Shown here: in pieces, positions 7,083 to 48,776 of the stretch
Numbering within the stretch: position 1 is the stretch's first letter
How the letters are laid out: the number at the start of each line of letters is the position of its first letter
DNA from: Limnohabitans sp. JirII-31
Lineage (GTDB): Bacteria; Pseudomonadota; Gammaproteobacteria; Burkholderiales; Burkholderiaceae_C
Reading direction: 5' to 3'
DNA: 64,000 bases
NCBI RefSeq assembly: GCF_002778315.1
Contig: NZ_NESA01000011.1
Span: 1 to 64,000 of the forward strand
Program-made: the position numbers and the translations under genes
The notes under the pieces: model-generated
Databases searched by the model: none
Told to the model about the DNA's origin: nothing
What the model saw: only the letters and a program-made list of their open reading frames with translations

Positions 7083-8576
7083 TCAAGTTGTCACGAAATC
7101 AAACGACCACGATGTTTTTTGCCAAGCAGCAGACTCTTGTCGCAACAGGTGTGCCGATTGCGGGTGCTGCACTGCCCAAGCAGCACTCGCATGAAGGTTA
7201 AAGTTTCGTTTGCCCTCGTGGCAGCTCAAGGCCAGACCTTGCAGCTCAGGGTCTTTGCGGGCGTGGCACAAGATGATGGCCAGCCGTAACACCAACAGCA
7301 GTTTCGAGAACTCGGGTGACTCAATTTCGATATCGAGTTTTTTCAACTTGCCGCGTTGCCCCAGCACCAACAGTCCTAAGCGGTGAAGCTCTGGCATGCT
7401 AAAGCCCAACATGTCGGCATTGTCCAAAATGTAAGCACCATGCTTGTGGTAGTCGCTGTGCGAGATGGCGATACCCACTTCATGCAACGTGGCGGCCCAG
7501 CTCAATTTGCGCAGCGCGGGCGACGGCAGAGAGCCTGCCACGGGGTCGATCTTGCGAAACAGGTGGGCCGATACCTGCCTCACCCGTTGGCTTTGCGCTG
7601 CATCCACCACAAACTTCTGCGCCAGGCGTTGCACAGACACATCGCGTGCATCAGACGTTTCGTCTTCACGCTCCACCATGTCAAACAACACACCATGCCG
7701 CAAGGCACCCTGCGCCACATGCAGGGTGCTGATCTTGAGTAACTCCATCAAGGCCCGCAGCACACTCACGCCGCCACCAATCACGGCGCGGCGGTCTTCT
7801 TTCAGGCCTTCCAATCGAACGCGTTCAGCCTGGCCTGCACGCAGCAAGCACTTGACCAACCAGTTCAAGCCTTCCCTGCTGATTTGCCCGTCAGGCCAGC
7901 CGGCAATTCGCAAAATATCTGCCACAGCGCCCACGGTGCCTGAAGCGCCATAGGCGGTGTCCCATTGGTTGCGCGGGTATTGGTTCAGGGCTTCTTCCAG
8001 CACAGCTTGTGCTGCAATTTCGGCACGGTAGAACGTTTGTTCTGTGAACTCGCCGTTCGGGAAATACGCCATCGACCAAGCCACACTGCCCACATGAAAC
8101 GACGCGGTTTCGGTGGCTTGTGTGCCTGCACCCAAAATAATTTCGGTCGAGCGCCCTCCAATGTCCACCACCAAGCGTCGCTCCTGGCTGTGTGGCAGCA
8201 AGTGCGACACGCCCTGGTAAATCAAGCGCGCCTCTTCGGTGCCGGCAATCACCTCAATCGGAAAACCCAAAATCTCGCAGCCCCGTTTGAGGAACACATC
8301 GCGGTTTTTGGCCTCACGCAGCGTTTGCGTGGCCACAGCACGGACTTGGGATTTTTTGAAACCCGACAAGCGCTCGGCGAAGCGGGCCAAGCAGTCCCAG
8401 CCTCTTTGCATGGCTTCTTGCGTCAAGTTGCGTTCTTCGTCCAGGCCATTGCCCTGGCGCACGGTTTCTTTGAGGTATTCAATGCGGTCGATTTGACCGT
8501 GGTCGTAGCGTCCAATCTCAAGTCGAAAACTGTTCGAGCCCAAGTCAATGGCTGCAAGAAGGGTGCCGTGGTTCAT
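7083..8576 (-). CDS. ppx: Exopolyphosphatase (Ppx/GppA family)
   Basis: Releases phosphate from polyphosphate ends, or hydrolyses pppGpp (GppA). Start taken at MNHGTLLAAIDLGSNSFRLE (AGGAT 8 bases before the ATG), giving 497 residues. The actin-like ATPase-fold motifs are IDLGSNSFRLEIG (about residue 9), VDIGGRSTEIILG (about 138) and ASGTVGAVADIL; a C-terminal HD-like segment has TLHEVGIAISH with histidines. It opposes phoX across a gap with a Pho box and shares the neighbourhood with ppk1, giving both arms of polyphosphate turnover. Confidence 0.93.
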   Translation of the reverse strand: MNHGTLLAAIDLGSNSFRLEIGRYDHGQIDRIEYLKETVRQGNGLDEERNLTQEAMQRGWDCLARFAERLSGFKKSQVRAVATQTLREAKNRDVFLKRGCEILGFPIEVIAGTEEARLIYQGVSHLLPHSQERRLVVDIGGRSTEIILGAGTQATETASFHVGSVAWSMAYFPNGEFTEQTFYRAEIAAQAVLEEALNQYPRNQWDTAYGASGTVGAVADILRIAGWPDGQISREGLNWLVKCLLRAGQAERVRLEGLKEDRRAVIGGGVSVLRALMELLKISTLHVAQGALRHGVLFDMVEREDETSDARDVSVQRLAQKFVVDAAQSQRVRQVSAHLFRKIDPVAGSLPSPALRKLSWAATLHEVGIAISHSDYHKHGAYILDNADMLGFSMPELHRLGLLVLGQRGKLKKLDIEIESPEFSKLLLVLRLAIILCHARKDPELQGLALSCHEGKRNFNLHASAAWAVQHPQSAHLLRQESAAWQKTSWSFDFVTT

Positions 8577-8611
8577 GAAGAACGATCCTAGGTAATTTAT
8601 GTGACACATTC

Positions 8612-8629
8612 ATGTCATGGGACTGTCAT
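8612..8629 (+). promoter_or_regulatory. Pho box between ppx and phoX
   Basis: ATGTCAT (8612-8618), spacer GGGA, CTGTCAT (8623-8629): second half-site identical to the consensus, first with one difference, spacing exact. It is 45 bases before the phoX ATG and 36 bases from the ppx start on the other strand, so it may serve phoX and possibly ppx. Confidence 0.82.
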
Positions 8630-8674
8630 ATCGCAACCCTACATTGGCGAATTCTCCTCCAGAAAAAAACAGCC

Positions 8675-10576
8675 ATGAACATCTTTGACCTGAACGATCA
8701 AGCCAACCATCCCCGTGCAACAGACAGTGACTTCGCCAAGTTGACCGACTCACTCATGGCACGCCGACAGTTCTTAGGTGCTTCGGCGGGCTTGGGCTTG
8801 GGTGCGTTTTTGGGAGGCGCGGCACACGCTCAGGGTACGGCCACACAGACAGCCCAAGGCCCACGCATTGGCTTCAAACCCATCGCGGCCAACTCGGCAG
8901 ATACCGTGACCGTGCCAGAGGGTTACCAATGGCGCGTGCTCTCATCTTGGGGGGACCCTTTGTTGCCCGGTGGCACCCCCTTTGACCACGCCACCCGTGG
9001 CACCGCCTTGAGCCAGAGCCTGGCCATGGGGGACAACAACGATGGCATGAGCTTTTTCAGCTTGGGCAAAGACCATGGCGTGATTGCCGTCAACAACGAA
9101 TACACCAACTACGAACACCTGTTTCCTCACGGGCGCTGTGCCAGCATTGACGACGCGCGCAAAGCGCAAGCCGCGCATGGCGTGACCGTGTTTGAAGTGC
9201 GTCGCCAAGCGGGCACCTGGCAGCCAGTGCCCAACGCCCCTTTGAACCGTCGCATCACGGCCAACACCGAGATGCGCCTGAGTGGCCCAGCCGCGGGCCA
9301 TCCTTGGCTCAAAACTTCTGCCGACCCCACCGGTACCGTGGCCCTGGGCACTTTCAACAACTGCGCCAATGGCCGCACCCCCTGGGGCACCTATCTGACC
9401 TGCGAAGAAAACTTCAACGGTTACTTCGGCAGTGCCGACAAACTGCCTGACAACGTCGCTTTCAAACGCTATGGCATTGCCGCCAAAGATGCGGGCTACA
9501 ACTGGCACCCCTTCGATGGTCGTTTTGACCTGGGCCAAAACCCCAACGAGCCCAACCGCTTTGGTTGGGTGGTCGAGATCGACCCCATGAACCCCCACAG
9601 CACGCCCACCAAGCGCACGGCCCTGGGTCGTTTCAAACACGAGAACGCCGAAGTCGTGCTCAGTGCAGATGGCCGAGTGGTGGTCTACATGGGTGACGAC
9701 GAACGTGGCGAACACATTTACAAATTTGTCTCAGCCAAGACTTTCGATCCTCAAAACGCCGCCGCCAACCGCCAGCTGCTCGACGAAGGCACCCTGTATG
9801 TGGCGCGTTTCACCGCAGCGGAGGGCAAGCTCTCAGGCCAAGGTGAGTGGTTGGAATTGACCCACGGCAAGAACGGGTTGACGCCCGAGAACGGTTTCAA
9901 AGACCAAGCCGAAGTGCTCATCCACGCACGCTTGGCCGCTACCGTGGTGGGTGCCACCACCATGGACCGCCCCGAGTGGATTGCCGCTCACCCCAGCAGG
10001 GCCGAGGTGTATGTGACCTTGACCAACAACACCGACCGTGGCGTCAAACCCAACCAAGCGCTCAATGGCCCCAACCCCCGTGCCAAAAACGTGTACGGGC
10101 AAATCGTGCGTTGGACCCCAGACCAAGGGCTGCACACCGCGCCGACCTTTCAATGGGACATCTTTGTGCTGGCCGGCAATCCCACCTTGCACCGCGACCT
10201 GATGGCGGGCACGCCCAACGTCAACGCCGACAACCTGTTCAACAGCCCCGATGGTTTGAGCTTTGACAAAGACGGGCGCTTGTGGATTCAAACCGATGGC
10301 GATTACAGCAACGCCAATGCTTTTGCGGGCATGGGCAATAACCAAATGTTGTGTGCCAACCCAGTCACGGGTGAGATCAAGCGCTTTTTGGTGGGGCCGG
10401 TGGCTTGCGAAATCACGGGCATCTGCTTTGCCCCAGACAACGCCACGATGTTTGTGGGCATTCAACATCCAGGCGAGGCGCGCAAGCCTTCGCACTTTCC
10501 GCAAGGTGGCCAAGCCGTGCCACGTTCTTCCATCATTGCCATCCGTCGCAAAGACGGTGGCGTGGTTGGCAGCTGA
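8675..10576 (+). CDS. phoX: PhoX-family alkaline phosphatase (DUF839), Tat-exported
   Basis: Extracytoplasmic phosphomonoesterase needing Ca/Fe, used to scavenge phosphate from organic esters. 633 residues from the ATG at 8675 (MNIFDLNDQ). A Tat signal ARRQFLGASAG lies at residues 29-39 and ends at AHAQ, after the long polar n-region usual for PhoX. Conserved family blocks are seen: VNNEYTNYEHLF, NNCANGRTPWGTYLTCEENF, GWVVEIDP, MGDDERGEHIYKFV, DRPEWIAAHP and LFNSPDGLSFD near the C-terminus. The shine-dalgarno is weak. A near-consensus Pho box precedes it. The gene for an OprB-like porin follows by 21 bases. Confidence 0.95.
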   Translation: MNIFDLNDQANHPRATDSDFAKLTDSLMARRQFLGASAGLGLGAFLGGAAHAQGTATQTAQGPRIGFKPIAANSADTVTVPEGYQWRVLSSWGDPLLPGGTPFDHATRGTALSQSLAMGDNNDGMSFFSLGKDHGVIAVNNEYTNYEHLFPHGRCASIDDARKAQAAHGVTVFEVRRQAGTWQPVPNAPLNRRITANTEMRLSGPAAGHPWLKTSADPTGTVALGTFNNCANGRTPWGTYLTCEENFNGYFGSADKLPDNVAFKRYGIAAKDAGYNWHPFDGRFDLGQNPNEPNRFGWVVEIDPMNPHSTPTKRTALGRFKHENAEVVLSADGRVVVYMGDDERGEHIYKFVSAKTFDPQNAAANRQLLDEGTLYVARFTAAEGKLSGQGEWLELTHGKNGLTPENGFKDQAEVLIHARLAATVVGATTMDRPEWIAAHPSRAEVYVTLTNNTDRGVKPNQALNGPNPRAKNVYGQIVRWTPDQGLHTAPTFQWDIFVLAGNPTLHRDLMAGTPNVNADNLFNSPDGLSFDKDGRLWIQTDGDYSNANAFAGMGNNQMLCANPVTGEIKRFLVGPVACEITGICFAPDNATMFVGIQHPGEARKPSHFPQGGQAVPRSSIIAIRRKDGGVVGS

Positions 10577-10597: not shown

Positions 10598-11941
10598 ATG
10601 CGTTTTTCTTATCTGTACTTTGCTGCTTGCCTTGCAGGTGTGGCCACTGTTGGCACCTGCTGGGCTGACACGCCAGACACCGAAGACCAAACCGCCCGTT
10701 ACCAGCTGACCTACAACTGGCAGCACCACGGTGCCTTCAATGCCAGCCACAGCGGTGCCAACAGCATTCAGCCGTCAGCTGAAAAGATGTACACCTTCAG
10801 TGCCACCGCGCACTGGGGGTTTCGTCCATGGCAAGACGGCGAGCTGTATTTCAACCCCGAGATCACGCAGGGCGTGCCGTTCTCTGGCAACTTGGTCGGT
10901 ATGGGCGGCTTCACCAACGGTGAAATCACCCGTGCTGGCGGCAGCAACCCCAAGGTCTACAGACAGCGCTTGTTTGTGCGCCAAACCTGGGGCCATGGGG
11001 GCGGGCAAGAAACGGTCGAGGCCGACTTCAACCAAATGGCTGGCACGGTCGATAAAAACCGTTTTGTGTTGACCGTTGGCAACTTCTCCACCTTGGATGT
11101 GTTTGACGACAACGCCTACGCCAAAGACCCGCGTACCCAATTCATGAACTGGGGCAACTGGACCTACGCCGCATATGACTATGCGGCAGACGCCCGAGGT
11201 TTTGGGTGGGGCTTTGCCGGTGAGTGGTACCAAGACGACTGGGTGCTGCGCTTTGGCCGCATGACGGCACCCACCACGCCCAATGGACAGCCTGTGGACT
11301 TTGCGCTCGCGCGCCACTATGGCGACCAAGTCGAATTAGAGCGCGCCCACACCTTGTGGGGGCAGCCCGGCAAATGGCGTGTGCTGGCATGGCGCAACCG
11401 TGGCGTGCTGGCCAGCTTCAACGATGCCACCCAATGGCAGTTGCAAAACCCCGGCACCTACAACGACCCCACGGCCTTGGTGCAGACGCGCAAAGAAGAA
11501 AAAACCAAATACGGTTTGGGCTTCAACGTCGAGCAAACCGTCCAACCTGGCGTGGGTTACTTTTTGCGCGTGATGAAAGCCGATGGCCGCACCGAAACCC
11601 AAGCCTTCACCGAAGTCGACGGTTCTTTGTCCACGGGCTTGGTGTTCAAAGGTGGTTTGTGGGGACGTGCCGACGATGCGGTGGGTGTGGCCTGGATGCG
11701 CAACACCTTGTCCAACGACCGACGTGCCTTCTTGGCGGCGGGTGGCACCTCGTTCTTCATTGGCGACGGCGCAGCGTTGACCCATTACCGCCCCGAGATG
11801 ATTCTGGAAGCCTTCTACAGCTTTGCCATGACCCGGGGCACCTGGCTGACCGCCGACTACCAACGGGTGCAAAACCCCGCCTACAACGCAGACCGTGGGC
11901 CGATCAACGTTTACGCAGCCCGCTTTCACGCCGAGTTTTGA
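10598..11941 (+). CDS. OprB-family carbohydrate-selective porin
   Basis: 447 residues with a classic signal peptide (cleavage likely after TCWA) and a beta-barrel pattern ending in the outer-membrane signature ARFHAEF with terminal Phe. Family features include the YNWQHHGAFNA start, QTWGHGG, TVGNFSTLDVFDDNAYA and the FMNWGNWTYAAYDYAADARGF block. OprB porins admit sugars, but the position 21 bases after phoX suggests this copy may admit phosphoesters or products of PhoX. Substrate is not readable from sequence. Confidence 0.85.
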   Translation: MRFSYLYFAACLAGVATVGTCWADTPDTEDQTARYQLTYNWQHHGAFNASHSGANSIQPSAEKMYTFSATAHWGFRPWQDGELYFNPEITQGVPFSGNLVGMGGFTNGEITRAGGSNPKVYRQRLFVRQTWGHGGGQETVEADFNQMAGTVDKNRFVLTVGNFSTLDVFDDNAYAKDPRTQFMNWGNWTYAAYDYAADARGFGWGFAGEWYQDDWVLRFGRMTAPTTPNGQPVDFALARHYGDQVELERAHTLWGQPGKWRVLAWRNRGVLASFNDATQWQLQNPGTYNDPTALVQTRKEEKTKYGLGFNVEQTVQPGVGYFLRVMKADGRTETQAFTEVDGSLSTGLVFKGGLWGRADDAVGVAWMRNTLSNDRRAFLAAGGTSFFIGDGAALTHYRPEMILEAFYSFAMTRGTWLTADYQRVQNPAYNADRGPINVYAARFHAEF

Positions 11942-11944
11942 AGC

Positions 11945-12313
11945 ATGTTGGAACGATGGCGCAAGCTCGCGCGCCTGATCAAGCAAGACGTCATGACGGT
12001 CTACCTGATTGCGCGTGACCCCCGCACGCCTGCACATGTCAAAGCACTGGCCTTGTTGGTGGCGGCCTACGCCCTCAGCCCCATTGATTTGATCCCTGAC
12101 TTCATTCCTGTCTTGGGATTCTTGGATGACATCATCCTTTTGCCTCTGGGCATTGCGCTGATCATCAAGCTGACGCCTTCAGACGTCTTGCAATCCAACC
12201 GTGCCAAAGCCCTTGAACTCGACACCAAACCCAGCAGCCGTGCCGCTGCGGCGGTCATCGTGTTGCTGTGGGTCTTGTGTGGGCTTGGCTTGGGCTACTG
12301 GTTGATCGCTTAA
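11945..12313 (+). CDS. YkvA family (DUF1232) small membrane protein
   Basis: 122 residues. The diagnostic DUF1232 block YALSPIDLIPDFIPVLGFLD occupies residues about 39-58, followed by a hydrophobic helix (IILLPLGIALIIKL) and a C-terminal membrane helix (VIVLLWVLCGLGLGYWLIA). Starts 4 bases after the porin stop; the tail overlaps the convergent tonB gene by 4 bases. Function of the family is not established. Confidence 0.85.
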   Translation: MLERWRKLARLIKQDVMTVYLIARDPRTPAHVKALALLVAAYALSPIDLIPDFIPVLGFLDDIILLPLGIALIIKLTPSDVLQSNRAKALELDTKPSSRAAAAVIVLLWVLCGLGLGYWLIA

Positions 12314-12957
12314 AAGCACGCCACCCAGATTTGGTACGTGCCTTCTTTGTTTTTCAACTCAGCGGGCGGTAAGGGGAACTTGGCAACTTCTACTGCCTTC
12401 ACAGCTGCCCGATCCACAGCGCCTAATCCACTGCTTTGAATCACACGAATGGCAGACGCCACGCCGTCGTGCAAATGGAACTCCACCCGTGCTTTGCCTT
12501 TGAATGACAAAGCTTTGGCAGAGCCCGGTACTTCAAAGGCCGCTTGTACGGCAGCAGCCAGCTTCACGTTGTAGGCGAGGGCAGGGTCCACGGCAGGTGC
12601 CACAAGCTGCGGCGCGTGTGCGGGAGCTACAGGTACGACTTCTTTTGTCAGCTGTTGCTGCACCGCATGAGACTCGCTCACTGTGGGTTGTTGTGCCAGC
12701 GGTTGTGGTGTTTCTGCTTGTGGGCGTGACACAGCTTGGGGGCTGGGGGGTGTTTTGATTTTGGGCGGTGGCTCACGTGCAGCCAGCTTTTGTGGTGGTT
12801 TGTCCATGAGCACTTCGATGCTCAAGGGAATCACTTCAGTTGGGACTGCTGGCAGGTGTTGAAAGGCCCAGCCCACCACCCCGACCATCAACACAGACTC
12901 CACGCCCAGTGCCATGGCCAAAGATTGCCATTGGCGTTTTTGATATCCGTTCAGCAT
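12310..12957 (-). CDS. tonB: TonB energy-transducing protein
   Basis: 215 residues: an N-terminal membrane helix (SVLMVGVVGWAFQHL, about residues 19-33), a Pro/Lys-rich periplasmic spacer (KPPQKLAAREPPPKIKTPP), and a C-terminal TonB domain with ALSFKGKARVEFHLHDGVASAIRVIQSSG and AVEVAKFPLPP. Transmits the ExbBD proton-motive energy to outer-membrane receptors. Last gene of the leftward TonB-receptor-exbB-exbD-tonB unit, 22 bases after exbD, so probably dedicated to that receptor. Confidence 0.9.
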   Translation of the reverse strand: MLNGYQKRQWQSLAMALGVESVLMVGVVGWAFQHLPAVPTEVIPLSIEVLMDKPPQKLAAREPPPKIKTPPSPQAVSRPQAETPQPLAQQPTVSESHAVQQQLTKEVVPVAPAHAPQLVAPAVDPALAYNVKLAAAVQAAFEVPGSAKALSFKGKARVEFHLHDGVASAIRVIQSSGLGAVDRAAVKAVEVAKFPLPPAELKNKEGTYQIWVACF

Positions 12958-12979
12958 AAAAGCGTTGGCTATTTGGTGC

Positions 12980-13375
12980 TCAGCGTGTGGGATGACGTGC
13001 TGCCAAGCCGACCTGTGTCACACCGCTGGTTTTGACCACATCAATCACGTCCATCACCCGTTGCATGGATGTGTCTTCGCCACCTGCAATCGTGACGGCT
13101 AATTTGCTGGCATCTTGACGTTGGATCAACGCACGAATTTCGTCCAGGGTCCGGCTTGAACCTTCTGCCATCAATTGGCCGTTGGCTTGAATCTCAATCA
13201 ACAACTTAGGCGCCGGTAAGGTGCTGGTGGTGCTGCTTGTGGGCAGTTTGGACAGCTGACCCGAGGATGGAATCATCCGCAGTGTCAGCATGGCAAAGAA
13301 CACCAGCAAAAACAACATGATGTCGATCATTGGAATGATCTCAATGCGCGCCTTGCGCGTCTCAAAGTAGCGCAT
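12980..13375 (-). CDS. exbD: ExbD/TolR biopolymer transport protein
   Basis: 131 residues with one N-terminal membrane helix IEIIPMIDIMLFLLVFFAML; the Asp in PMIDIM (about residue 18) is the conserved proton-path residue. The periplasmic part ends in GEDTSMQRVMDVIDVVKTSGVTQVGLA, typical of ExbD. Only one base separates its ATG from the exbB stop, so the two are coupled. Confidence 0.92.
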   Translation of the reverse strand: MRYFETRKARIEIIPMIDIMLFLLVFFAMLTLRMIPSSGQLSKLPTSSTTSTLPAPKLLIEIQANGQLMAEGSSRTLDEIRALIQRQDASKLAVTIAGGEDTSMQRVMDVIDVVKTSGVTQVGLAARHPTR

Positions 13376-13376
13376 G

Positions 13377-14033
13377 TCAGACTGCTTTTAACTTGGGACG
13401 CACATTGGCGGGTGTGGGTGTGCCAAAGCGACGGTTGAGCAGCATCAGTTTGATGACTTCTAGCTGATGAACAATCATGCGCACCTTGGTGCTGAGCCCG
13501 TTGAAAAACACCAAACCAACCATGGCGATGAACAGGCCAAAAGCGGTGGCAATCAATGCCTCTGCAATGCCACCGGTGACCTGTGACGCGGCATTCTGTA
13601 CATCACCGAGCACAGAAAATGCGCCAAACATGCCGATGATGGTGCCAAACAAGCCCAGCAGAGGGGCCAGCGTGATCACGGTGTCGAGTACCCAGAGCGA
13701 ACGGTCCAGCATCGGTACTTCGTGCATCACCGCTTCTTCGAGATGGCCAGCACAGGTGTCACGTTCAGACTCAAGCGGTTCAATCAGCGAGGCTTCAAAC
13801 AAGCTGATGTGTGGCAACTTGGCGTGCTTGGCCAGGCACGCTTGCAAAGGCTCTGTTGGCAACTGCGGACTGTGCTGCAGCAAGCCAATCAGTTCTTCGC
13901 CACCTTGTTGCATTTTGGACAAATAGAGCGTGCGCTCGATGATCACAGTGAGTGCTACCAAGAGCAGCACACACATGATGTAGAGCGTGCCGCCCGAGTT
14001 GTTGGCCAGTTCAAACAGCTTCTCGGGCGTCAT
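13377..14033 (-). CDS. exbB: ExbB/MotA/TolQ proton channel protein
   Basis: 218 residues with three membrane helices: near residues 17-35 (YIMCVLLLVALTVIIE), 117-140 (WVLDTVITLAPLLGLFGTIIGMF) and 158-180 (ALIATAFGLFIAMVGLVFF). The LGLFGTIIGM and GGIAEALIATAFGL motifs are hallmarks. Second gene of the receptor operon, 2 bases after the receptor stop. Confidence 0.93.
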   Translation of the reverse strand: MTPEKLFELANNSGGTLYIMCVLLLVALTVIIERTLYLSKMQQGGEELIGLLQHSPQLPTEPLQACLAKHAKLPHISLFEASLIEPLESERDTCAGHLEEAVMHEVPMLDRSLWVLDTVITLAPLLGLFGTIIGMFGAFSVLGDVQNAASQVTGGIAEALIATAFGLFIAMVGLVFFNGLSTKVRMIVHQLEVIKLMLLNRRFGTPTPANVRPKLKAV

Positions 14034-14035
14034 AT

Positions 14036-16348
14036 TTAAAAGTCCGCTTTCAGTGACACCATCATGCTGCGTGGTGCTTGATAGATGTAGGTGTCTTGTG
14101 CCACGGTAGAGCCCGTGCTGATGGAGGTGATCTTGCCGCTGTTGGTCAAGTTAAACACGTTGAATTGCAGCTTCAAATTCTTGGTCTGTGGCGTCACGTT
14201 CTTCAAGGTGTACGCCACGCCTAAATCCAAGTTGCCGTAAGCGGCTGTTTTGTAGTAGTCGTAATACGACACACCACCGATGGCTGCTTTGCTGGCGTCA
14301 TAGTCTTTCTGATGCACGTTGCCTGTGCGCTTGTAGATCAATGAGCCCGACCAAGGCCCCGCGTTGTACAAACCGCCCAAGGCAGCTGTCATGCTGGGTG
14401 CACCTGAAATTTGTTCACCCGTGTCGTTGGCCTTGGCGCTGTTGAGCGAACCATTCAAGTAGAGCGAGAAGCCGCCACCCAACACCCGCGCCATCTGACC
14501 TTCAACGCCTTTGTAGGTGGCGCCACCCACGTTGACGTACTGTGTCACAGCAGGTGTGCCCGATGTCACAGACACCAACTTGTTGGTGAAGTCGATTTGG
14601 TAGATGTCCACATCCCATGTCATCTCATCGGTTTTGCCAACAATGCCCAACTGCAAGTTGGTCGACTTTTGTGGGTCTGTGCTGTTTTTGGTGGGGTCCG
14701 TGATGTAGAAGGTGTTCAAGTCAGGAATTTGAAAACCCTTGGCGTATTGCGCATACACCGACATGCTGGCGTTGATTTTTTGGTTGATCGTCAAGAACGG
14801 CAACGTGGTTTTGTACGTCACGGAGGCGTTGTGGTTGAGGTCACGGCTGGTGTTCTCGACTGCCGCGTTCACAGAGCGTGTGATGCTGACGTACTTCACA
14901 CCTGGGGTCACCGTCATGCTGTCGGTGGCGGCCCATTCGAACTCGGCGAAGGGTTGAATCGACTTGATGCTCGATTGCTGGTCAAACTTCACGCTGTCGA
15001 TGGGACGGTTGGTGCCGGCCAGCGTGTTGGCGTTGGCTGTGGATTCAATGCGGTTGTAGCCGCCCGTGGTCAAGTCCAGGTCGTACTGGTGACGGTCGGT
15101 CGACGAGGTTTCATACCAAACGCCAACGCGTGCCAAACCTTCTTCCATTTTTTGTGTGGCTTTGAACATATCGCCCCACACGCGGTACTTGTTCTGCTTG
15201 TCAATGCCAGGAATATGGCCGTTGGCTGTGACCGTGCGTGTGCCGTCGCTGGCTGTCTTGCGTGGGTCAGAGGTCAAAGGCAGCGTACCCGTCCACGTGG
15301 GCGTGGTCGACGACATGGTTTGGTTGTTGTAGGCGTAGGTGTAGAGCGAGTTGTCTGTGCTCCAACCATCGCCGAGATCACTGCGCAAACGCAAGTAGCT
15401 GAAATCGGTGTCCTTGCTGGTTTTGTTGTACCCCATGTAGTTCATGCTGGTGGGGTCGTTGTCCAACTGGTAGTTGCGACCAAACGCTGCAATCTGGGTC
15501 AGAGTGGCGCCCTTGTTGCTGTCGGGTTGGTTGTAGTCGATGTGGTTGTAGGTGGAGAAGATGGTCATCAACGATGCATCACCCACTGGGCGCTCATATT
15601 TCAGCGCATAGTTCTGGCTCTTGACAGCGCTGTAGCTCAGATAGCCATCAGACGACAGATTTTGGTAATTCAGTTGCAGCGTGGCATCACCCTTGTCAGC
15701 CATGCGGCCTGTCTCATACGCGAAGCCATACAACTGGGTGTTCCAAGTCCCCAAGGAGGTGAACACCGTGGTGTTTTCTTCAGCCATTGGTTTTTTGGAG
15801 AACAGGTTGATAGAGCCACCGAATGTGGCGTAGCCCAAATTGCTGGCGTTGCCAGGGCCACGCTCTACCACTGCGCCACCGATCACCGAGGCGGGGAAGA
15901 AGGAGGTGGAGTGGTGGGCCGGGTTGTTGGTGTCACCCCATGGGATGCCATCAAAGGTGATGTTGTATTGGTCATCGCTGAAACCACGCAAGGTGGTTTT
16001 GGTTTCGCTCAAGCCTGGGCCGTTGGCTGAGTCCCCTGACAAGCTGGGCGCGATGTTGACGATGCGGCTGTATTCGGCAATCGGCGAAACAGACAAGTCC
16101 ATGAATTCGCGGGTGATGATGGACTGAGGCTGTGTGGCTTCCAGGCTGGCTTGCGTGGGTGCCACTGCGGTGGCGGTTCCTTTGACGGACTCTTCGCGGA
16201 AAGCGCCCGCTGCCGTGCTGGCACCGATGGTGCCCAAGTCGGTGGCGCTGGTCTGCGCCAAGCTCAGGTGGCTGGCGCTGAGGGTTACCAAAGCCAATGA
16301 GACAAGACGGGTGACGTGTTTGAGTTGAAAAGATGGTTGTTTTTTCAT
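14036..16348 (-). CDS. TonB-dependent outer-membrane receptor
   Basis: 770 residues with a signal peptide (about residues 1-31, ending SLAQ), a plug domain (SIITREFMDLSVSPIAEYSRI, LRGFSDDQYNITFDGIPWGDT, VVERGPGNASNLGYATFGGSINLFSK) and a beta-barrel ending PRSMMVSLKADF. It heads an exbB-exbD-tonB operon and is divergent from a secreted phosphatase that has a Pho-box-like site. No siderophore, heme or cobalamin genes are adjacent. I infer uptake of an organophosphate or a metal cofactor for PhoX-type enzymes; neither is provable from sequence. Confidence 0.9.
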   Translation of the reverse strand: MKKQPSFQLKHVTRLVSLALVTLSASHLSLAQTSATDLGTIGASTAAGAFREESVKGTATAVAPTQASLEATQPQSIITREFMDLSVSPIAEYSRIVNIAPSLSGDSANGPGLSETKTTLRGFSDDQYNITFDGIPWGDTNNPAHHSTSFFPASVIGGAVVERGPGNASNLGYATFGGSINLFSKKPMAEENTTVFTSLGTWNTQLYGFAYETGRMADKGDATLQLNYQNLSSDGYLSYSAVKSQNYALKYERPVGDASLMTIFSTYNHIDYNQPDSNKGATLTQIAAFGRNYQLDNDPTSMNYMGYNKTSKDTDFSYLRLRSDLGDGWSTDNSLYTYAYNNQTMSSTTPTWTGTLPLTSDPRKTASDGTRTVTANGHIPGIDKQNKYRVWGDMFKATQKMEEGLARVGVWYETSSTDRHQYDLDLTTGGYNRIESTANANTLAGTNRPIDSVKFDQQSSIKSIQPFAEFEWAATDSMTVTPGVKYVSITRSVNAAVENTSRDLNHNASVTYKTTLPFLTINQKINASMSVYAQYAKGFQIPDLNTFYITDPTKNSTDPQKSTNLQLGIVGKTDEMTWDVDIYQIDFTNKLVSVTSGTPAVTQYVNVGGATYKGVEGQMARVLGGGFSLYLNGSLNSAKANDTGEQISGAPSMTAALGGLYNAGPWSGSLIYKRTGNVHQKDYDASKAAIGGVSYYDYYKTAAYGNLDLGVAYTLKNVTPQTKNLKLQFNVFNLTNSGKITSISTGSTVAQDTYIYQAPRSMMVSLKADF

Positions 16349-16468
16349 GGTGTAGACGCGTGAATAAAAAATCTTTGCTTTTGACAGTTAGCTGTTAAAA
16401 CAAGCACGAAGTATCAAAACCATTTGTGACAACAGCGCTACAAAAATATGAAATTTATAAGACCTTGG

Positions 16469-16486
16469 CCGTCATGAATCTGCCAC
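16469..16486 (+). promoter_or_regulatory. Candidate Pho box upstream of secreted phosphatase
   Basis: CCGTCAT (16469-16475), spacer GAAT, CTGCCAC (16480-16486): each half-site differs from CTGTCAT/CTGTCAC by one base and spacing is exact. 39 bases before the ATG at 16526. The rest of the 177-base divergent gap is AT-rich and may hold the promoter of the TonB-receptor operon, with an isolated TTGTCAC half-site on the minus strand (rc of 16425-16431). Confidence 0.6.
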
Positions 16487-16525
16487 GCAGCATCGTCACA
16501 CTGCGCCCTTAACTTTGGAAACCTC

Positions 16526-17518
16526 ATGCGTAAGCTTTCAATTTTCTCTGTGCTGTTGAGCACCGTATTCGCTGCGTCAGCCGCCGATTTTTCATTTGCG
16601 TTGTGGGGCGACATGCCTTACGGCAAAAACAACGACGCACGTCAAACCCAAGCCGTGATCGACAGCATCAATGCGTCAGATGTCGCGTTCTCGATCTTCG
16701 ATGGCGACTTCAAAGACGGCAGTTCGACGTGCCATGACGCGCTGTACACGCAGACGCTCAACACCTTCAATGCCATGCACAAACCGCTGGTGTATGTGCC
16801 AGGTGACAACGAGTGGACGGACTGCCACCGCACCAACAACGGAGGGTTCAATGCCCTGGAACGCTTGTCTTTGATTCGCCGGACTTTCTTTGCTAGTTCA
16901 GAAAGTTTGGGTCAGAAAAAAATGCGATTGGCGCAGCAAGGCAAAGCGGGCGATCAGTTTTCTGAAAACACCCGCTTTGTGTACCAGGGCATCGTGTTTG
17001 TTGGTCTGAATGTGCCCGGCAGCAACAACAACCTGGTGATGAGCCCCAAAGAGTGCACGCACAAGAGCGCCAGAACGCAGGCTGATTGCGATGCTGCCAA
17101 TGCCGAATTCATCGAGCGTGACAACGCCAACGTCGCATGGCTCAAGGCTGCTTTTGCAACCGCCAAATCGCAGTCGGCACGAGGTGTGGTGGTCGTCATT
17201 CAAGCCAACCCAGGCTTCGATTTGTCTGAGACTTGGCCACTCGATGAAAGCACCTTGCCGGAGTATTCCGGCTATCGTCATTGGATGTCTGCACTGGTGG
17301 CCGAAACCGAAGGCTTCTCAGGGCAAGTGTTGTTGGTGCATGGCGATGACCATTTTTTCAAGATCGACAAGCCCTTGTACTCACCGCTGCGCATGTTGAA
17401 AAATTTCACCCGTGTTCAAACCTTTGGCAGTCCTTCCAACCACTGGGTCAAGGTCACGGTGGAGGGCTCACAGCCACAGGTGTTCACCCTCCAGCCTGTC
17501 ATGGTGGAGGGCCACTGA
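16526..17518 (+). CDS. Secreted calcineurin-like metallophosphatase
   Basis: 330 residues with a cleavable signal (ending AASAADF). Metallophosphoesterase motifs are visible but divergent: LWGDMPYG (in place of DxH), IFDGDFKDGS (GD), VYVPGDNEWTDC (GDNE in place of GNHD), and VLLVHGDDHFF (GDDH in place of GHxH). The GDNEWTDC variant characterises a branch of extracytoplasmic phosphatases. A Pho-box-like site precedes it, and it is divergent from the TonB-receptor operon, so a phosphate-scavenging role is likely. Substrate unknown. Confidence 0.8.
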   Translation: MRKLSIFSVLLSTVFAASAADFSFALWGDMPYGKNNDARQTQAVIDSINASDVAFSIFDGDFKDGSSTCHDALYTQTLNTFNAMHKPLVYVPGDNEWTDCHRTNNGGFNALERLSLIRRTFFASSESLGQKKMRLAQQGKAGDQFSENTRFVYQGIVFVGLNVPGSNNNLVMSPKECTHKSARTQADCDAANAEFIERDNANVAWLKAAFATAKSQSARGVVVVIQANPGFDLSETWPLDESTLPEYSGYRHWMSALVAETEGFSGQVLLVHGDDHFFKIDKPLYSPLRMLKNFTRVQTFGSPSNHWVKVTVEGSQPQVFTLQPVMVEGH

Positions 17519-17547
17519 GCATCTTTTGAATAAGCCTGTGGCCCTTT
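17508..17547. terminator. Hairpin between convergent genes
   Basis: AGGGCCAC (17508-17515) pairs with GTGGCCCT (17538-17545), 22-base loop, followed by TTT. It overlaps the stop of the phosphatase gene and abuts the stop of the convergent DUF4010 gene; a weak terminator. Confidence 0.45.
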
Positions 17548-18778
17548 ATGGCGCCAGGTTCATGGTGACCAATGCCGCTGCCAAGAGTGCCACCAATCCC
17601 GATGTCACTCGGTGACCGTAAGCTTTGCCGCCACTCAGGTAGGCCAAGCCAATTTTGGACACCACACTCGACGCCAGCACGGCCATCACGCCCCAGCGTG
17701 CGAAGACGGGTTGCACACCGTCAGGCACGCCCAGCTGTGCCACGCTGACCACTGCTGAGTGCAGTTCAACCAGCGCCACCAACACGGCGGTGGTCAACAC
17801 GCCGGATTCACCAAACATCTGTCGCAAGCCGGCCGCCAGCAGGGTGACGCCACTGATGGTCACAGCCATCAGCAAGGCATGCGTCACTTTGAACGCATGT
17901 TCACTGGCTGTGATTTGAAACTCGCTGCCAGGTGCCAGTTTGCGAGCATGAAAAACAGCCACACACACCATAGCGAGCGCCGCCGCAGCCAAGGGCCAAG
18001 CCACTGAGCGCAACAAAGCCTGTGACGTGGCCCCCAGCACCAAGCAAAAAAGCGTCAGCGAAGACAGCGTGGAAAACAGCGCAGCCGCACTGGCTGCTGA
18101 GGTGAGTTCGGGCTTGTCAGTCGCCTTGCGTCCAAACTCAGCCACAGCGGCGGTAGAGGAGATGAAGCCAGAGAAAAATCCGGCCAACGGCAGCCCCCAC
18201 CGCGCACCGGTGGCGCGCATCGCAATGTGGCCCACCATGCCGATGCCCATGATCAACACCACAATCTTCCACATGGCATAGGGCTTGAGCACGTGCCATG
18301 GGTCCACCGCTTCGGTGGGCAACAGCGGGAGCACCACCAACGCGGCAGCGCACAGCATCAAGGCGTCTTCCAGCTCTTTTTCGCTCAGCACTTCCTGGCT
18401 GAAATGGCGCAGCGGTTTTTTGACAAACAGCAAGCCTGCCACCACCACCCCTGTGGCTGCTGCCAACGGCGCGTTCTGGACGGCCAAGCCCGACAGCGCA
18501 GCGGTTAACAACAGCGCGAACTCACCGGTCATGCCAGGGTCTTCGGGGGCAGACTGGCGGTAACCCAGCGCCACCATCACCCCCACCATGACCAAGGTCA
18601 CCACAAAGGCGTACATGCCCAGCAAGAAGGTGATGGCACCCAGCAGTGCCACGATGGCATGCGTGCGCACACCTGCTTTCATGACGCCCGGTTTGTGCAG
18701 ACGCTCACGCACGGTGCCAATCAGCAAGCCAATGCCCAGTGCAGTGAGCAGACCAAGCAGCGATTCATTCCATGGCAT
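17546..18778 (-). CDS. MgtC/SapB-DUF4010 family integral membrane protein
   Basis: About 410 residues from the ATG at 18778 (MPWNESLLGLL); a TTG 15 bases upstream is also in frame. The N-terminal part has the MgtC/SapB pattern GLGIGLLIGTVRERLHKPG...GVRTHAIVALLGA; the rest is DUF4010, with about ten further membrane helices and the motif GFISSTAAVAEFGRKA. Function is not settled; MgtC-type proteins are linked to Mg limitation and, in some bacteria, to phosphate uptake control. It stands between the phosphate genes and the metal efflux operon, so context does not decide. Confidence 0.82.
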   Translation of the reverse strand: MPWNESLLGLLTALGIGLLIGTVRERLHKPGVMKAGVRTHAIVALLGAITFLLGMYAFVVTLVMVGVMVALGYRQSAPEDPGMTGEFALLLTAALSGLAVQNAPLAAATGVVVAGLLFVKKPLRHFSQEVLSEKELEDALMLCAAALVVLPLLPTEAVDPWHVLKPYAMWKIVVLIMGIGMVGHIAMRATGARWGLPLAGFFSGFISSTAAVAEFGRKATDKPELTSAASAAALFSTLSSLTLFCLVLGATSQALLRSVAWPLAAAALAMVCVAVFHARKLAPGSEFQITASEHAFKVTHALLMAVTISGVTLLAAGLRQMFGESGVLTTAVLVALVELHSAVVSVAQLGVPDGVQPVFARWGVMAVLASSVVSKIGLAYLSGGKAYGHRVTSGLVALLAAALVTMNLAP

Positions 18779-18808
18779 GGTGGTTCTGTTCAATCGTGCA
18801 AGCGGGGC

Positions 18809-20050
18809 TTACTCGTCGAAGTCCCAAATTTCATGCAAGTCCAGCCGCACGCTGGTGAGCAATTCCACCACGTCCACCCGCATCAACTCGGCGGCCAAAC
18901 GGTTGTCGTTGGCCACGCGGGCAATGGTCAGCATGTCGGACATGCTGTGCTCGCCCAAGGTGAAGGCGGTGCGTGATTTGTCGGCGGCCAGCGTTTGCGC
19001 TTGTGCGGCCAGTTGCAGTTGCTCAGCGGCCAAACGCTTGTGCTGGTACTGCGCCAAGGTGGTGTCAAAGGCAGCGCTTAACGTGCGCTGCAAGGTGGCC
19101 ACCTTGTCTTCGGCGGCTTGTGCTTCGGCCAGTGCGGCCTGGCCTTGGTAGCTGCGTGCGTCGCCCGGAAAAGCAATGGCCACACTCAGGCCAGTCACCT
19201 GTTCAGCGCCTGCAAATTCACGCGCGGTGAAGAGGCCCACGGTGGGGTCAGGCAAGCGGTCGCGGTTCACGCGCTGGGCGTGCAAGCGCAAGCGCTGTGC
19301 ATCGATGCGCAACATGTTGAGCTCATGGTTGGTTTGCAAAAACGCGTCGCGCAAGGCGGACGTGTTGTCCAGCGGCGCAGGCCCTTGCTGGTCTTGTGCC
19401 ATGCGCTTGAACGTCGTGTTGGGCAAAGGCAGACCGGGGTAGCGGCGCTGCAAGGCCGCGGTGGCACTGCTCAATTCAGCCTGGCTGAGTTGCCACGCCG
19501 CCTGGGTGCGCTGCAACTCGGCCTGTGCCAATTGCGCGTCAAGTTGCGAAATTTCACCGTACTTCAAACGCACGCTGGCCAAGCGCAAGGTGGCTTGGGC
19601 CAGTTCCAGGTTGGTGTTGGCGTTGGCGTGTGTGGTGCTGGCGCGCAGGTAGGCAAACCAGTGCTTCAACAACTCGCGGCTGGCTTCGTGCACCGCGTCG
19701 GCGTATTCAATGTCGGCCAGGGCCTGGGTTTGCTGCGCCAGCTCAGCGTCGATGCCACGCTTGCCCCACAAGCGCACCGGGCGTTCCAGGCTGATGCTCG
19801 ACTCGCCATAGCGGTCGCTGTTGGTTCTGCGCCGCTGTTGCAAGACACGCACGCTGAACTCGGCCGTGCCCGCGTCAATGGCTTGCGCATGCAGCCCCAG
19901 TGCCTGCTTGCGAGCGCGTGCTTGTTGCAGCAGGGGCGATTGGATGAGCGCCTCTTTTGCCGCCGCCTCCGCAGGCAAGTACGCGGCCAGCTCCGGGCTG
20001 GCATGCAAGGCCGTGCTCAGCAGCAGGGTCAATCCAAGCAGATGTTTCAT
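18809..20050 (-). CDS. czcC: TolC/CzcC-family outer-membrane efflux protein
   Basis: 413 residues with a signal peptide (ending ALHA) and two OEP repeats rich in coiled-coil helices, e.g. ASVRLKYGEISQLDAQLAQAELQRTQAAWQ split by a beta region, and the late SRTAFTLGEHSMSDML motif. Forms the outer-membrane duct of the tripartite metal pump. Its ATG overlaps the stop of the RND gene (ATGA). czcC is last here (order B-A-C), which differs from classic czcCBA. Confidence 0.88.
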   Translation of the reverse strand: MKHLLGLTLLLSTALHASPELAAYLPAEAAAKEALIQSPLLQQARARKQALGLHAQAIDAGTAEFSVRVLQQRRRTNSDRYGESSISLERPVRLWGKRGIDAELAQQTQALADIEYADAVHEASRELLKHWFAYLRASTTHANANTNLELAQATLRLASVRLKYGEISQLDAQLAQAELQRTQAAWQLSQAELSSATAALQRRYPGLPLPNTTFKRMAQDQQGPAPLDNTSALRDAFLQTNHELNMLRIDAQRLRLHAQRVNRDRLPDPTVGLFTAREFAGAEQVTGLSVAIAFPGDARSYQGQAALAEAQAAEDKVATLQRTLSAAFDTTLAQYQHKRLAAEQLQLAAQAQTLAADKSRTAFTLGEHSMSDMLTIARVANDNRLAAELMRVDVVELLTSVRLDLHEIWDFDE

Positions 20051-23000
20051 GGCTGTTTCCTCGTGAACAAGCGTGACAACAGAGCCGAGCGGTGAACCAC
20101 TGCGTGCCAGGCTTCGCCCACACTGTCGGCAGCGCCAAAGCGCTCAAAAATTTTGGGCAACAACAGCAAGGTCAGCAATGTGGAGGTCAGCAAACCGCCC
20201 GTCACCACCACCGCCAAGGGCCGTTGAATTTCAGAGCCGGGCCCAGTGGCAAACAGCAGCGGAATCATCCCCAGCGCTGTGATCACCGCCGTCATCAACA
20301 CCGGGCGCAAGCGCCGCTCAGAGCCCAGACGCACCACGGTGGCCAGGTCTTCGCCTTCCAGCAAACGCTCGTTGAAGTGCGTCACCATCACCACGCCGTT
20401 GAGCACCGCAATGCCCAGCAGTGCAATGAAGCCCACCGAGGCCGGCACCGACAAATATTCGCCCGACACAGCCAGCGCCACCACCCCGCCCACCAAGGCA
20501 AACGGGATGTTCACAAAAATAATGCCTGCCTGCACCACCGACCCAAAGGTGACCACCAAGATGGCAAAAATCAAACCCAGCGCAGCCGGTATCACCAGAG
20601 CCAAACGTGCCGCAGCGCGTTGCTGGTTTTCAAACTGTCCGCCCCACACCACGCGCAAGTGCTTGGGCAAATTCAGCGCGGCCACAGCCGCTTGTGCGTC
20701 TTGCACGTAACCTCCCAGGTCGCGCCCGTCCACCGACACCTGCACGGTGGTGAAGCGCGCGCTTTGTTCGTGGTCCACCCGAATCGGGCCATCCACCACC
20801 GCGATGGTGGCCAAGCTGCCTGCGGTCCAGCTGCTGCCATTGGGGGCGACCAAGCGCAGGTTCTTGAAGGCCTCCGGGCTGTGCCGCACGGCCTCATTGC
20901 CTTTGAGCGTGAGGGGCGCACGCACACCGTCTTGCAGCACATAGCCCAGCGCTTCGCCCTCGACTTGGTTCTTCAAGGCCTGCTGCACTGCCTCCACGCT
21001 CAGGCCTGCCTGACCTGCCAGCGTGCGGTTGACCTCGACCGACAGGTACTGCAAGCCATCGCCCTTGGGGGCAATCACTTCGCCCGCACCGGGGATGGTG
21101 CGCATGGCCTCGGCCACGCGTTGCGCGGCTTCTTGCAACTGGTTCAAGTCGGCGCCAAAAATCTTGATGGCCACATCGCCGCGCGTGCCGGTCAGCATCT
21201 CGGACACCCGCATTTCAATCGGTTGCGTGAAGCCGTACACCAGCCCCGGAAACCCTTCCAATACCGTGCGCAACTCGGCCACGATGTCTTCTTTGTTGCC
21301 ACGCCATTCGCCCTTGGGCTTGAGCACCAAAAACGTGTCGGTCTCGTACAAGCCCATCGGGTCGAGCCCCAACTCGTCGGACCCGGTGCGTGCCACCACC
21401 GCTTTGACTTCGGGCACGCTGGCCAGAATGGCTTGCTGAACCCGGGTGTCCATCTCCAGCGAGGCTTCGAGCGAGATCGAGGGCAGCTTTTGCAGCTGCA
21501 CGATGATGTCGCCCTCGTCCATCGTAGGCATGAAGGTTTTGCCAATCACGGTGTACAAGCCTGCGGCCAGCACCAGCGACGCCAGCGAGGTGCCATACAA
21601 CCACTTGGGGTGACGCCAGACCGTGTCGCGCACACGCACATAGCCAGCGTGAATCCACTGCATCAAACGCGGCTCATGCGCACCTTGTTCTTTGAGCAGC
21701 CAAGAGGCCAAGGCCACCACCACGGTGAAGGCCATCAGCAGCGACGCGGCCAGGGCCAAGATGATGGTCACCGCCACGGGCGAGAACAACTTGCCTTCCA
21801 GCCCCTGCAAACTCAGCAGCGGCAAAAACACCACGCAGATGATCAGCACGCCCGCCACCACCGGTTTGACCACTTGGCGCACCGCGCCCATCAGCACCTC
21901 GGCCCGCGACAAAGCGTGGTGGCCGCTGTGCGCCGCAAACGCGGTTTCGATGTTCTCCACCACCACCACCGACGCATCCACCAGCATGCCCAGTGCAATC
22001 GCCAAGCCGCCCAGGCTCATCAGGTTGGCGGTCAGCCCAAACGCATGCATGAGCATGAAGGTGCACAGCAAGGCCAAGGGCAGCGACACCGCCACCACCA
22101 ACGCGGCGCGCAAGCCACCCAAGAACACATACAGCGTCACGCACACCAGCACCGACGCTTCCAGCAAAGCCTTGATCACCGTGCCCGCCGCACGCGACAC
22201 TAACTCGCCCCGGTTGTAAAACACCTGCACCCGCATGCCAGAGGGCAGGCGGGGTTGAATGTCGTCGAGCTTGGCGCTGACCTGTGTCACCAAGTCGCGC
22301 GCGTTCACGCCACGCATGCCCAGCACCAGGCCTTGCACCGCTTCGCCTTGGCCGTTCTCGGTCACTGCGCCGTAGCGCGTGAGCGCGCCTAAGCGCACCG
22401 TGGCCACGTCGTCCACATACACCTTGAGGTTGGGTTGGGCGGTGGCCAAACGCACGGTGCGCAAGTCGTCAAGCGAGCGCACCGCACCCACCACCCGCAC
22501 CACCAGCGATTCGTCGCCCAGCGTCAAGCGGCCCGCGCCGTCGTTGCTGTTGTTGGCCAGCAGGGCTTGGCGCAAGTCACCCATGCTCACGCCCAAGGCC
22601 GCCATGCGCTCGGGGTTGGGCACCACTTCCAGGGTTTGCACTTCGCCGCCCAGCGAGTTGACTTCGGCCACACCGGTGACGGTGCGCAGCTCGGGGCGAA
22701 TCACCCAGTCCAGCACGCGGCGTTTCTCGGCCAGGCTGAAGCCGTCACCTTCAAGCGTGAACATGAACATCTCGCTCAAGGGTGTGGTGATGGGGGCCAA
22801 GCCGCCGCTCACGCTGGCAGGCAAGTCGCGCATCACGTTGTTGAGGCGTTCAGACACTTGCTGGCGCGCCCAGTAAATGTCGATGCCTTCGTCAAAGTCA
22901 ATCGTGATGTCGGCAATGCCGTACTTCGAGACCGAGCGCACCACCCGTTTGTTGGGAATGCTCAGCAGCTCTTGCTCCACGGGTTTGACCACGCGTTGCT

Positions 23001-24302: not shown

Positions 24303-24406
24303 ACCCAACTCCTTCCAAACAAACCATGAAAAAACAAGGTCGCAGTCTGCGACGGCCTCGCGCATCGTGATGGGGTCATCAGACCACACCTCTGTGACGC
24401 GGGCGT

Positions 24407-46781: not shown

Positions 46782-46799
46782 TCTTTAAGCGATCTCCTC

Positions 46800-46828
46800 A
46801 ATGGCAAATTTACGTTTATTTTGCCATT
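46800..46828 (+). terminator. Hairpin after the beta-barrel gene
   Basis: AATGGCAAA (46800-46808) pairs with TTTGCCATT (46820-46828), loop 11. No T-run follows, so it is a weak terminator candidate. Confidence 0.35.
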
Positions 46829-46962
46829 GCACTCTTCCACCTGGCCGGTGGCTTCACGAGAATCGCCAATCTGCTTGGTATCACCCGGTAGATTGGCCTC
46901 GTTCCTTGGCTAAGGGGCATGTGAACTACAATGACCCGTCCAATAAGTTGTACAGGTTAATC

Positions 46963-47477: not shown

Positions 47478-47514
47478 GCCGGAACAAGACGCATCGTTTT
47501 GAACGTATGCAAAT

Positions 47515-47566: not shown

Positions 47567-47596
47567 GGCAAGTCAGATGAACTTGATAGAGTTTCC

Positions 47597-48772: not shown

Positions 48773-48776
48773 GATC

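Follow-up and report, generated by a model that had tools for sequence, protein, structure and literature searches.

What does a TonB-dependent receptor import when its gene lies in a cluster of phosphate genes, back to back with the gene of a secreted phosphatase? The question is raised by a stretch of 64,000 nucleotides from Limnohabitans sp. JirII-31 (contig NZ_NESA01000011.1, positions 1 to 64,000), which was analysed as a whole and is here called the window. An earlier note on this DNA had taken the arrangement as a hint of active organophosphate uptake. In our analysis, relatives of the receptor in many bacteria adjoin phosphatases of several kinds, and therefore the pump probably imports phosphorus-containing organic molecules. 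The decisive support for the phosphatase link is this comparative evidence. We consider it probable that TonB-driven import of a bulky organophosphate and periplasmic dephosphorylation together form a self-powered phosphorus-scavenging unit. The features on which the argument turns are the following.

12310-12957, minus strand: tonB (TonB_C PF03544, 27.0 bits against a cut-off of 24.6; TIGR01352, 31.4 bits; both over curated cut-offs)
12980-13375, minus strand: exbD (PF02472, 76.9 bits)
13377-14033, minus strand: exbB, MotA/TolQ/ExbB proton channel (PF01618, 104.9 bits)
14036-16348, minus strand: TonB-dependent outer-membrane receptor, 770 amino acids, first gene of the operon (plug PF07715 and barrel PF00593, over cut-off)
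16349-16525: divergent promoter region between receptor and phosphatase, 177 bp
16526-17518, plus strand: MPE_W, protein of 330 amino acids with a metallophosphoesterase fold in its predicted structure and variant metal motifs

The gaps between the four minus-strand genes are 2 bp (receptor to exbB), 1 bp (exbB to exbD) and 22 bp (exbD to tonB), and therefore the genes very probably form a single operon (12310-16348), in agreement with the earlier note and with their Pfam domains. Genome-wide there are three TonB_C, six ExbD-family and eight receptor-barrel matches, including a stronger TonB_C match on the same contig about 70 kb away. The set in the window is thus a second, dedicated one and not the only one of its genome.

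Phosphatases adjoin the receptor family

At an E-value of 1e-60 the receptor was found in 25 of 250 genomes drawn from the order Burkholderiales, its own genome included. With a profile built from 18 members at least 558 relatives were found in genome contigs, of which the best 80 were kept. Together with the window and 20 stretches from the order genomes (L081-L100, which represent 20 of the 31 non-window receptor places there, in rank order with gaps) these make up 101 loci, or 98 non-redundant ones once the near-identical loci L145, L155 and L161 are removed from the counts. The best 80 relatives come from Comamonadaceae, Massilia, Rugamonas, Duganella, Undibacterium, Roseateles, Curvibacter and others, and also from metagenome genomes labelled Chlorobium, Marinimicrobia and Desulfovibrionaceae.

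When the open frames of these loci were clustered, the most frequent neighbours included phosphatases as well as the motor genes. In Pfam searches of scanned representatives, calcineurin-like phosphoesterases fell into two families, here MPE_A and MPE_B, and other representatives were identified as type I phosphodiesterase (PDE), PAP2 and phytase-like proteins. With MPE_W this gives six phosphatase-type families, at least one of which is present in 70 of the 98 loci: MPE_A in 32, MPE_B in 19, PAP2 in 10, MPE_W in 5, PDE in 4 and the phytase-like family in 2. Three distant phosphatase matches (3963, 5754 and 5903 bp off) were excluded from these counts and L130 was added by hand after inspection. 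By a crude rule, 69 of 73 phosphatase genes have signal-peptide-like starts. One scanned PAP2 protein has class A acid phosphatases as its nearest relatives of solved structure; one phosphodiesterase has weak sulfatase and YejM matches only among solved structures, and a sequence search of solved structures with one MPE_A protein gave no match. At least one of exbB and exbD was picked up close to the receptor in 46 of the 98 loci.

In 68 loci the sequence extends for 3.5 kb or more to each side of the receptor, and 54 of these have a phosphatase-type neighbour. Grouped by identity to the window's receptor, the neighbour is present in 7/13 loci at 30-39%, 28/31 at 40-49%, 7/10 at 50-59%, 10/12 at 60-69% and 1/1 in the eighties, the window itself making up the total.

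In L130, from Roseateles saccharophilus, an open frame of 1226 amino acids looked like a fusion of receptor and phosphatase. This candidate was rejected: the receptor is read in a different frame and terminates at its own stop codon at 11118, about 12 bp ahead of the point where the phosphatase match starts. A porin-like protein of 369-422 amino acids follows the receptor in L083, L084, L132, L135, L136 and L144, mostly Undibacterium-type loci; that of L083, the one scanned, had no Pfam match.

Controls on the adjacency

Could the adjacency reflect no more than the density of phosphatase genes in these genomes? When the six neighbour profiles were run on loci of 40 TonB receptors outside the family, taken from nine of the genomes that also supplied family loci, 2 of the 40 matched (Fisher p 4e-15 against the family), a comparison that favours the family over the control since the profiles were built from the neighbours themselves. 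A strict motif search intended as an unbiased control failed, finding only 8 of 68 family loci and none of the 40 controls. We therefore turned to whole-genome Pfam searches, in which 123 receptor places were compared with 95 places of four Pfam phosphatase families in 11 genomes, all over cut-off (3 receptor and 2 phosphatase places below the Pfam cut-offs are omitted). A phosphatase domain lies within 4 kb of the barrel domain in 11 of 13 family receptors and in 5 of 110 others (Fisher p 2e-10). At 3 kb the numbers are 11 and 4, and at 6 kb 11 and 6. The two family misses are a second receptor in G082 and the window itself, which is counted as a miss because Pfam does not see MPE_W.

The 11 genomes were taken down the receptor ranking after the neighbourhoods of L081-L100 were known, and two genomes were skipped: G166, a cut contig, and G200, which has three receptors, the flanked one (L091) without a detected phosphatase. 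With all four receptors of these genomes scored as misses the result is 11/17 (p 2e-8). With the neighbour profiles, 13 of the 20 large stretches L081-L100 have a phosphatase. The adjacency of this receptor family to phosphatases is not due to chance and is a strong association; with the Pho-box-like promoters described below, it adds weight at the level of the family to the hint of organophosphate uptake.

Exchange of partners along the receptor tree

The phosphatase partner changes repeatedly along the receptor tree. This was seen on a quick maximum-likelihood tree of 94 receptors and three outgroups (sequences shorter than 600 amino acids omitted), with support from the Shimodaira-Hasegawa-like approximate likelihood ratio test only. 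Ten neighbour states, the outgroup label included, need 36 changes on this tree; the mean after shuffling was 56.4 and none of 200 shuffles was as low. MPE_A changes 17 times (at least 11 of them forced by the branches starred on the tree), MPE_B nine times (seven forced) and PAP2 seven times (seven forced). Gains and losses are indistinguishable in these counts, and the state without a partner includes cut contigs. MPE_W is retained in a starred clade made up of the window, L101 and L103.

Partner variety extends to another class. Two of four matches on Novosphingobium plasmids were inspected. The receptor of the first adjoins an annotated metallophosphoesterase and that of the second a PAP2 phosphatase. 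Receptor and phosphatase are also found together in L156, L167, L171, L175, L177, L178 and L180, metagenome genomes labelled Desulfovibrionaceae, Chlorobium/Chlorobiaceae or Marinimicrobia; presence under these labels reflects either wide transfer or binning error.

We tentatively propose, with rather less confidence than in the import reading itself, that the phosphatase next to the receptor is an exchangeable cartridge drawn from six families. The whole may be a proteobacterial counterpart of the phosphorus-utilisation loci of Bacteroidetes: a receptor lineage that would import bulky phosphorylated molecules and is frequently encoded together with an ExbBD-TonB motor. It is present in Burkholderiales and sphingomonads, and metagenome genomes of Chlorobi and Marinimicrobia point to its presence there as well.

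The phosphatase of the window

The divergent gene that the earlier note described as a signal-peptide phosphatase with variant metal motifs bears out that description. Its open reading frame (ORF) starts 177 bp from that of the receptor, and the N-terminus of the protein, MRKLSIFSVLLSTVFAASA, is readable by eye as a Sec signal peptide. MPE_W has no Pfam or NCBIfam match (PF00149 was not matched), and a sequence search of solved structures gave nothing credible. The AlphaFold model (mean predicted local distance difference test score, pLDDT, 87.3; best Foldseek E 6e-8) shows a metallophosphoesterase fold. Its highest Z scores in structure comparison were with Lmo2642 (20.6), the glycerophosphodiesterase GpdQ (20.5) and SMPDL3A (20.3), and PhoD (18.4), purple acid phosphatases (about 18) and wheat phytase (17.8) also matched. 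Canonical calcineurin-like phosphoesterases have the motifs DxH, GDxxD, GNH[DE] and GHxH. MPE_W departs from this set, with GDN[ED] and HGDxH in place of GNH[DE] and GHxH. Both replacements, GDNE and GDDH in the wording of the note, are invariant across an alignment of 18 homologues, and nearly all rows of the alignment have DxP instead of DxH.

Outside the window this enzyme is seldom a partner of the receptor. Homologues of MPE_W occur in 53 of the 250 order genomes, the window's own included, and in 20 stretches of 6.8-19 kb around such homologues in 19 other genomes no receptor homologue was found at E 1e-5. No MPE_W was found in the 20 receptor stretches L081-L100. A general receptor-MPE_W pairing was therefore rejected, only 5 of 98 receptor loci having this partner.

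The phosphate island

The earlier note placed the receptor within a phosphate cluster, and the genes on the tonB side agree with this.

1747-2517, plus strand: PlcP-like metallophosphoesterase (PF12850 and PF00149)
2508-3881, plus strand: Agt-like glycosyltransferase (PF00534 and PF13439)
3973-6075, plus strand: ppk, polyphosphate kinase (four PP_kinase domains)
6088-6588, plus strand: SixA-like histidine phosphatase (PF00300, 42.9 bits)
7083-8609, minus strand: ppx, Ppx/GppA phosphatase family (PF02541, 249 bits)
8612-10576, plus strand: phoX alkaline phosphatase, ORF as called (PF05787, 609 bits)
10598-11941, plus strand: OprB-type outer-membrane porin adjoining phoX (PF04966, 111.9 bits)

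The names PlcP-like (implying lipid remodelling), Agt-like and SixA-like are those we take to be appropriate. By eye, the PlcP-like protein resembles proteins near the receptor in L100, L107, L127, L160 and L165, and the SixA-like protein is similar to proteins adjoining ppk in relatives.

Directly beyond the phosphatase lies an MgtC/DUF4010 membrane protein (17546-18793), homologues of which are also found in stretches L102 and L103. It is followed at 18809-24782 by genes for an outer-membrane efflux protein, a CusA/CzcA heavy-metal pump of the resistance-nodulation-division (RND) type (926 bits) and a membrane-fusion protein. CorA-type genes, identified by cluster, lie within 3 kb of the receptor in L101, L104, L105, L106, L131 and L137; in L101, L104 and L105 the CorA assignment was confirmed by Pfam. 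Further along the window, the region 46245-49103 adjoins a tRNA-Arg gene, has a G+C content down to 0.465 at 46-48 kb and contains genes for an outer-membrane beta-barrel protein (46245-46781) and a Fic/DOC protein (47597-48778). It is possibly an insertion.

Possible links to phosphate regulation

A candidate Pho box, CCGTCATGAATCTGCCAC, lies at 16469-16486 on the plus strand, 39 bp before the start codon of the phosphatase. It has 3 mismatches in 14 positions. Only 1.1% of Markov-randomised copies of the 177-bp promoter contain a Pho box with three mismatches, and the aligned position in L101 and L103 is also Pho-box-like, but as a Pho box before the window's phosphatase the site is a weak candidate when set against the frequency of such sites given below. 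A Pho box with one mismatch is present at 8612-8629. It overlaps the start of phoX as called, and the true start of that gene may therefore lie downstream.

Across the family the receptor promoters were scanned from 250 bp before to 60 bp after the start of the receptor ORF, related loci in this sample being non-independent. Pho-box-like sites with up to three mismatches on the strand of the gene were found for 19 of 95 family receptors, compared with 2.0 +/- 2.4 (maximum 14) for 200 permuted motifs and with 1 of 39 control receptors (Fisher p 0.008); promoters were too short for this count in 3 of the 98 family loci and 1 of the 40 controls. Gene content in three loci is suggestive of the same link. 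L105 has, in this order, two ABC permeases, an ABC ATPase, PhoU, a response regulator, PhoR, CorA, receptor, ExbB, ExbD, TonB, MPE_A and a PhoX-domain protein; PhoR scores 377 bits, over its curated cut-off, and the ABC genes are read as Pst by position. L107 has ppx, a SixA-like gene, ppk, the receptor operon, MPE_A, a glycosyltransferase and a PlcP-like gene, with phoX at 6 kb. L153 has PhoU, receptor, MPE_B and PhoX.

What the receptor may import

We envisage the unit as working in the following way. The receptor would bind an organic phosphate compound too large or too dilute for porins, and ExbB, ExbD and TonB would power its passage across the outer membrane by the proton motive force. 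Exported periplasmic phosphatases, here MPE_W, would then free phosphate for uptake across the inner membrane, while PhoX and the nearby porin would serve as a general arm. On this account the neighbours are presumably active phosphatases, hydrolysis would follow import and take place in the periplasm, and PhoB would control the divergent promoter of the window. The ligand of the receptor would be a phosphate compound, candidates being inositol phosphates, nucleotides and other polyphosphorylated molecules. Different partners may mark different substrates or just different routes to free phosphate.

Several observations weigh against this account. Some concern the phosphatases: 14 of the 68 full-flank loci have no detected phosphatase (L091, L094, L097-L100, L112-L114, L116, L117, L157, L163 and L166), including 6 of 13 at 30-39% identity; the window's own family is a minority partner; and the phytase-like and PDE neighbours may catalyse other reactions, PDE also matching a sulfatase model. 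Others concern regulation. The Pho box that the earlier note saw before the phosphatase is there, but sites with three mismatches occur across the window at chance level (7 found, 5.26 expected), and among phosphatase promoters of the family only 7 of 73 have a Pho-box-like site with up to three mismatches on either strand. On the reverse strand of the receptor promoters there are 8 such sites in 95, a number that 3 of 200 permuted motifs reach, and therefore part of the Pho-box excess may be due to composition or relatedness. For core Pho genes within 5 kb, family loci (11 of 98) and controls (3 of 40) do not differ clearly (p 0.76). Finally, the closest solved receptors transport pyrroloquinoline quinone (PQQ) or ferric citrate, and two-component systems, mostly not PhoBR, recur near the receptor, with an RND pump or CorA in some loci (these were counted in family loci only).

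The receptors just mentioned bear on the alternative that survives best, which we nevertheless regard as unlikely: that the phosphatase acts first, outside the cell or at its surface. What the receptor takes up would then be the organic part left after dephosphorylation, or else a phosphorylated cofactor or vitamin, to supply carbon or cofactors, with phosphorus as a by-product. A profile search of solved structures with the window's receptor gave YncD/PqqU (E 3e-26, mostly over the barrel) and FecA (8e-20), followed by haem, pesticin and metallophore receptors, and a fold search with its model (pLDDT 74) gave PqqU first and FecA next, at 16% identity, with FpvA also matched. PqqU is a cofactor transporter; the ligands of PqqU/YncD and FecA differ from the one proposed here, and we know of no phosphatase link for either. 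Several of the phosphatases are lipoprotein-like (15 of 33 MPE_A by a crude rule) and could be located at the surface. However, the enrichment of Pho boxes near the receptor start indicates that phosphorus is what is needed, and six chemically different families have in common only the presumed release of phosphate.

Somewhat less probable again is a role in metal handling, in which receptor and phosphatases would belong to a metal response and the released phosphate would precipitate or deliver the metal; the UrpRS-controlled phytase of Caulobacter, which responds to uranium, is a parallel (PMC8963506). The recurrence of two-component systems, RND pumps and CorA leaves room for such a metal-phosphate role. 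Of the 98 loci, 29 have a two-component-type gene within 5 kb, 7 have RND genes within 8 kb and 6 have CorA within 3 kb; the first number is an upper estimate because the two-component cluster also contains unrelated signalling proteins (119-887 amino acids). The window's RND protein is of the CusA/CzcA type by curated cut-off, and genes for RND and TolC proteins are likewise present in L230 and L231. Against this, the RND types vary, that of L126 scoring best on a multidrug model and those of L114 and L230 falling under the heavy-metal cut-off. Five sensor kinases that were scanned had QseC (three), PhoR (one) and heavy-metal (one) models as their best matches, of which PhoR alone passes its cut-off. 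Phosphatases, present in 70 of 98 loci, are far commoner neighbours.

There is little to recommend the view that this is an ordinary siderophore or B12 receptor located in the phosphate island by chance. Most characterised TonB receptors are of that kind, and BtuB models do match weakly. By these models, however, the receptor is not a B12 receptor, the BtuB scores being 56.1 bits against a curated cut-off of 599.7 and 48 against 836; a grouping with B12 receptors was part of what the earlier note would have taken as telling against organophosphate uptake. The absence of siderophore genes also stands for the annotated genes between 902 and 24782, to which the check was limited, and the phosphatase adjacency is not due to chance. 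A Fur-box search of the window gave no match, a result of little power given that none was expected by chance either. Least probable is a role in cell-surface signalling, the receptor acting as a sensor of phosphate compounds in the manner of VreA/PUMA3 of Pseudomonas. Surface signalling linked to phosphate does exist, but plug and barrel are the only Pfam domains of the receptor, with no match to the signalling domain (STN) at E 0.001, and no sigma or anti-sigma gene is present among the window's annotated neighbours.

Relation to known systems

The idea of TonB import of organophosphates is not new in kind, and the route is better described than the earlier note supposed. The closest parallel is the phosphate utilisation (Pus) system of Flavobacterium, for which the published passages on these clusters describe PusCD and low-phosphate TonB transporters beside different periplasmic phosphatases and phosphodiesterases (PMC8115612). 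The enzymes differ from one Pus cluster to another, and the authors' reading is one of organic phosphorus import and periplasmic breakdown (PMC8115612). The likeness to our loci lies in the co-localisation of TonB transporters with varied phosphatases. The Pus receptors belong to Bacteroidetes, are of the SusC type with a SusD lipoprotein cap and are given a PF13715 domain, and those passages mention no dedicated exbB-exbD-tonB set (PMC8115612). In contrast, the system of the window has its own motor genes and is found mostly in Burkholderiales; its receptor has no match to PF13715 or a SusC-type domain, and no SusD-like surface lipoprotein family is present among the window's annotated neighbours.

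Proteobacterial precedents also exist. In Citromicrobium bathyomarinum a TonB transporter adjoins a phytase, and phytic acid was inferred as its substrate from gene context; sequences of such phytic-acid TonB-dependent transporters are called abundant in metagenomes (PMC3400609). The context is alike, although the account of that locus describes no exchange of partners. In Caulobacter the TonB receptor gene CC0171 lies beside that of ElpS, a phosphate-starvation protein linked to secreted phosphatase activity, and so again adjoins a phosphatase-linked gene; it differs in that ElpS is an extracellular lipoprotein released through the type II secretion system and that cc0171 is reported to be constitutive (PMC2996285). 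An organophosphate hydrolase (phosphotriesterase) of Sphingobium fuliginis is reported to be bound to the Ton complex at the inner membrane, which likewise associates a phosphoesterase with ExbB, ExbD and TonB (PMC7142613). Binding to the complex is reported for the Sphingobium enzyme, whereas the system of the window is known from its genes. The phytase controlled by the UrpRS two-component system of Caulobacter is different again, being uranium-responsive, and the description of its locus states no link to a TonB receptor (PMC8963506). The passages concerned in PMC9426549, PMC2536512, PMC9414882 and PMC10719396 gave no specific information on the question.

In searches of the open-access literature we recognised no description of this receptor family with exchanged phosphatases. 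As far as these searches show, the new elements are the receptor family itself, the motor genes encoded with it and the exchange of phosphatase partners that was measured.

Implications

If the proposed import holds true, many freshwater and soil Proteobacteria would scavenge phosphorus by energy-driven import of intact organophosphates, and their phosphorus supply would go beyond diffusion through porins after hydrolysis at the surface. A class of substrate could also be assigned to the receptor family, whose two annotated members on plasmids carry the label 'TonB-dependent receptor' only. Counts of TonB receptors in metagenomes would then gain a meaning for phosphorus, and culturable species in which the proposal may be tested are named among the loci described here.

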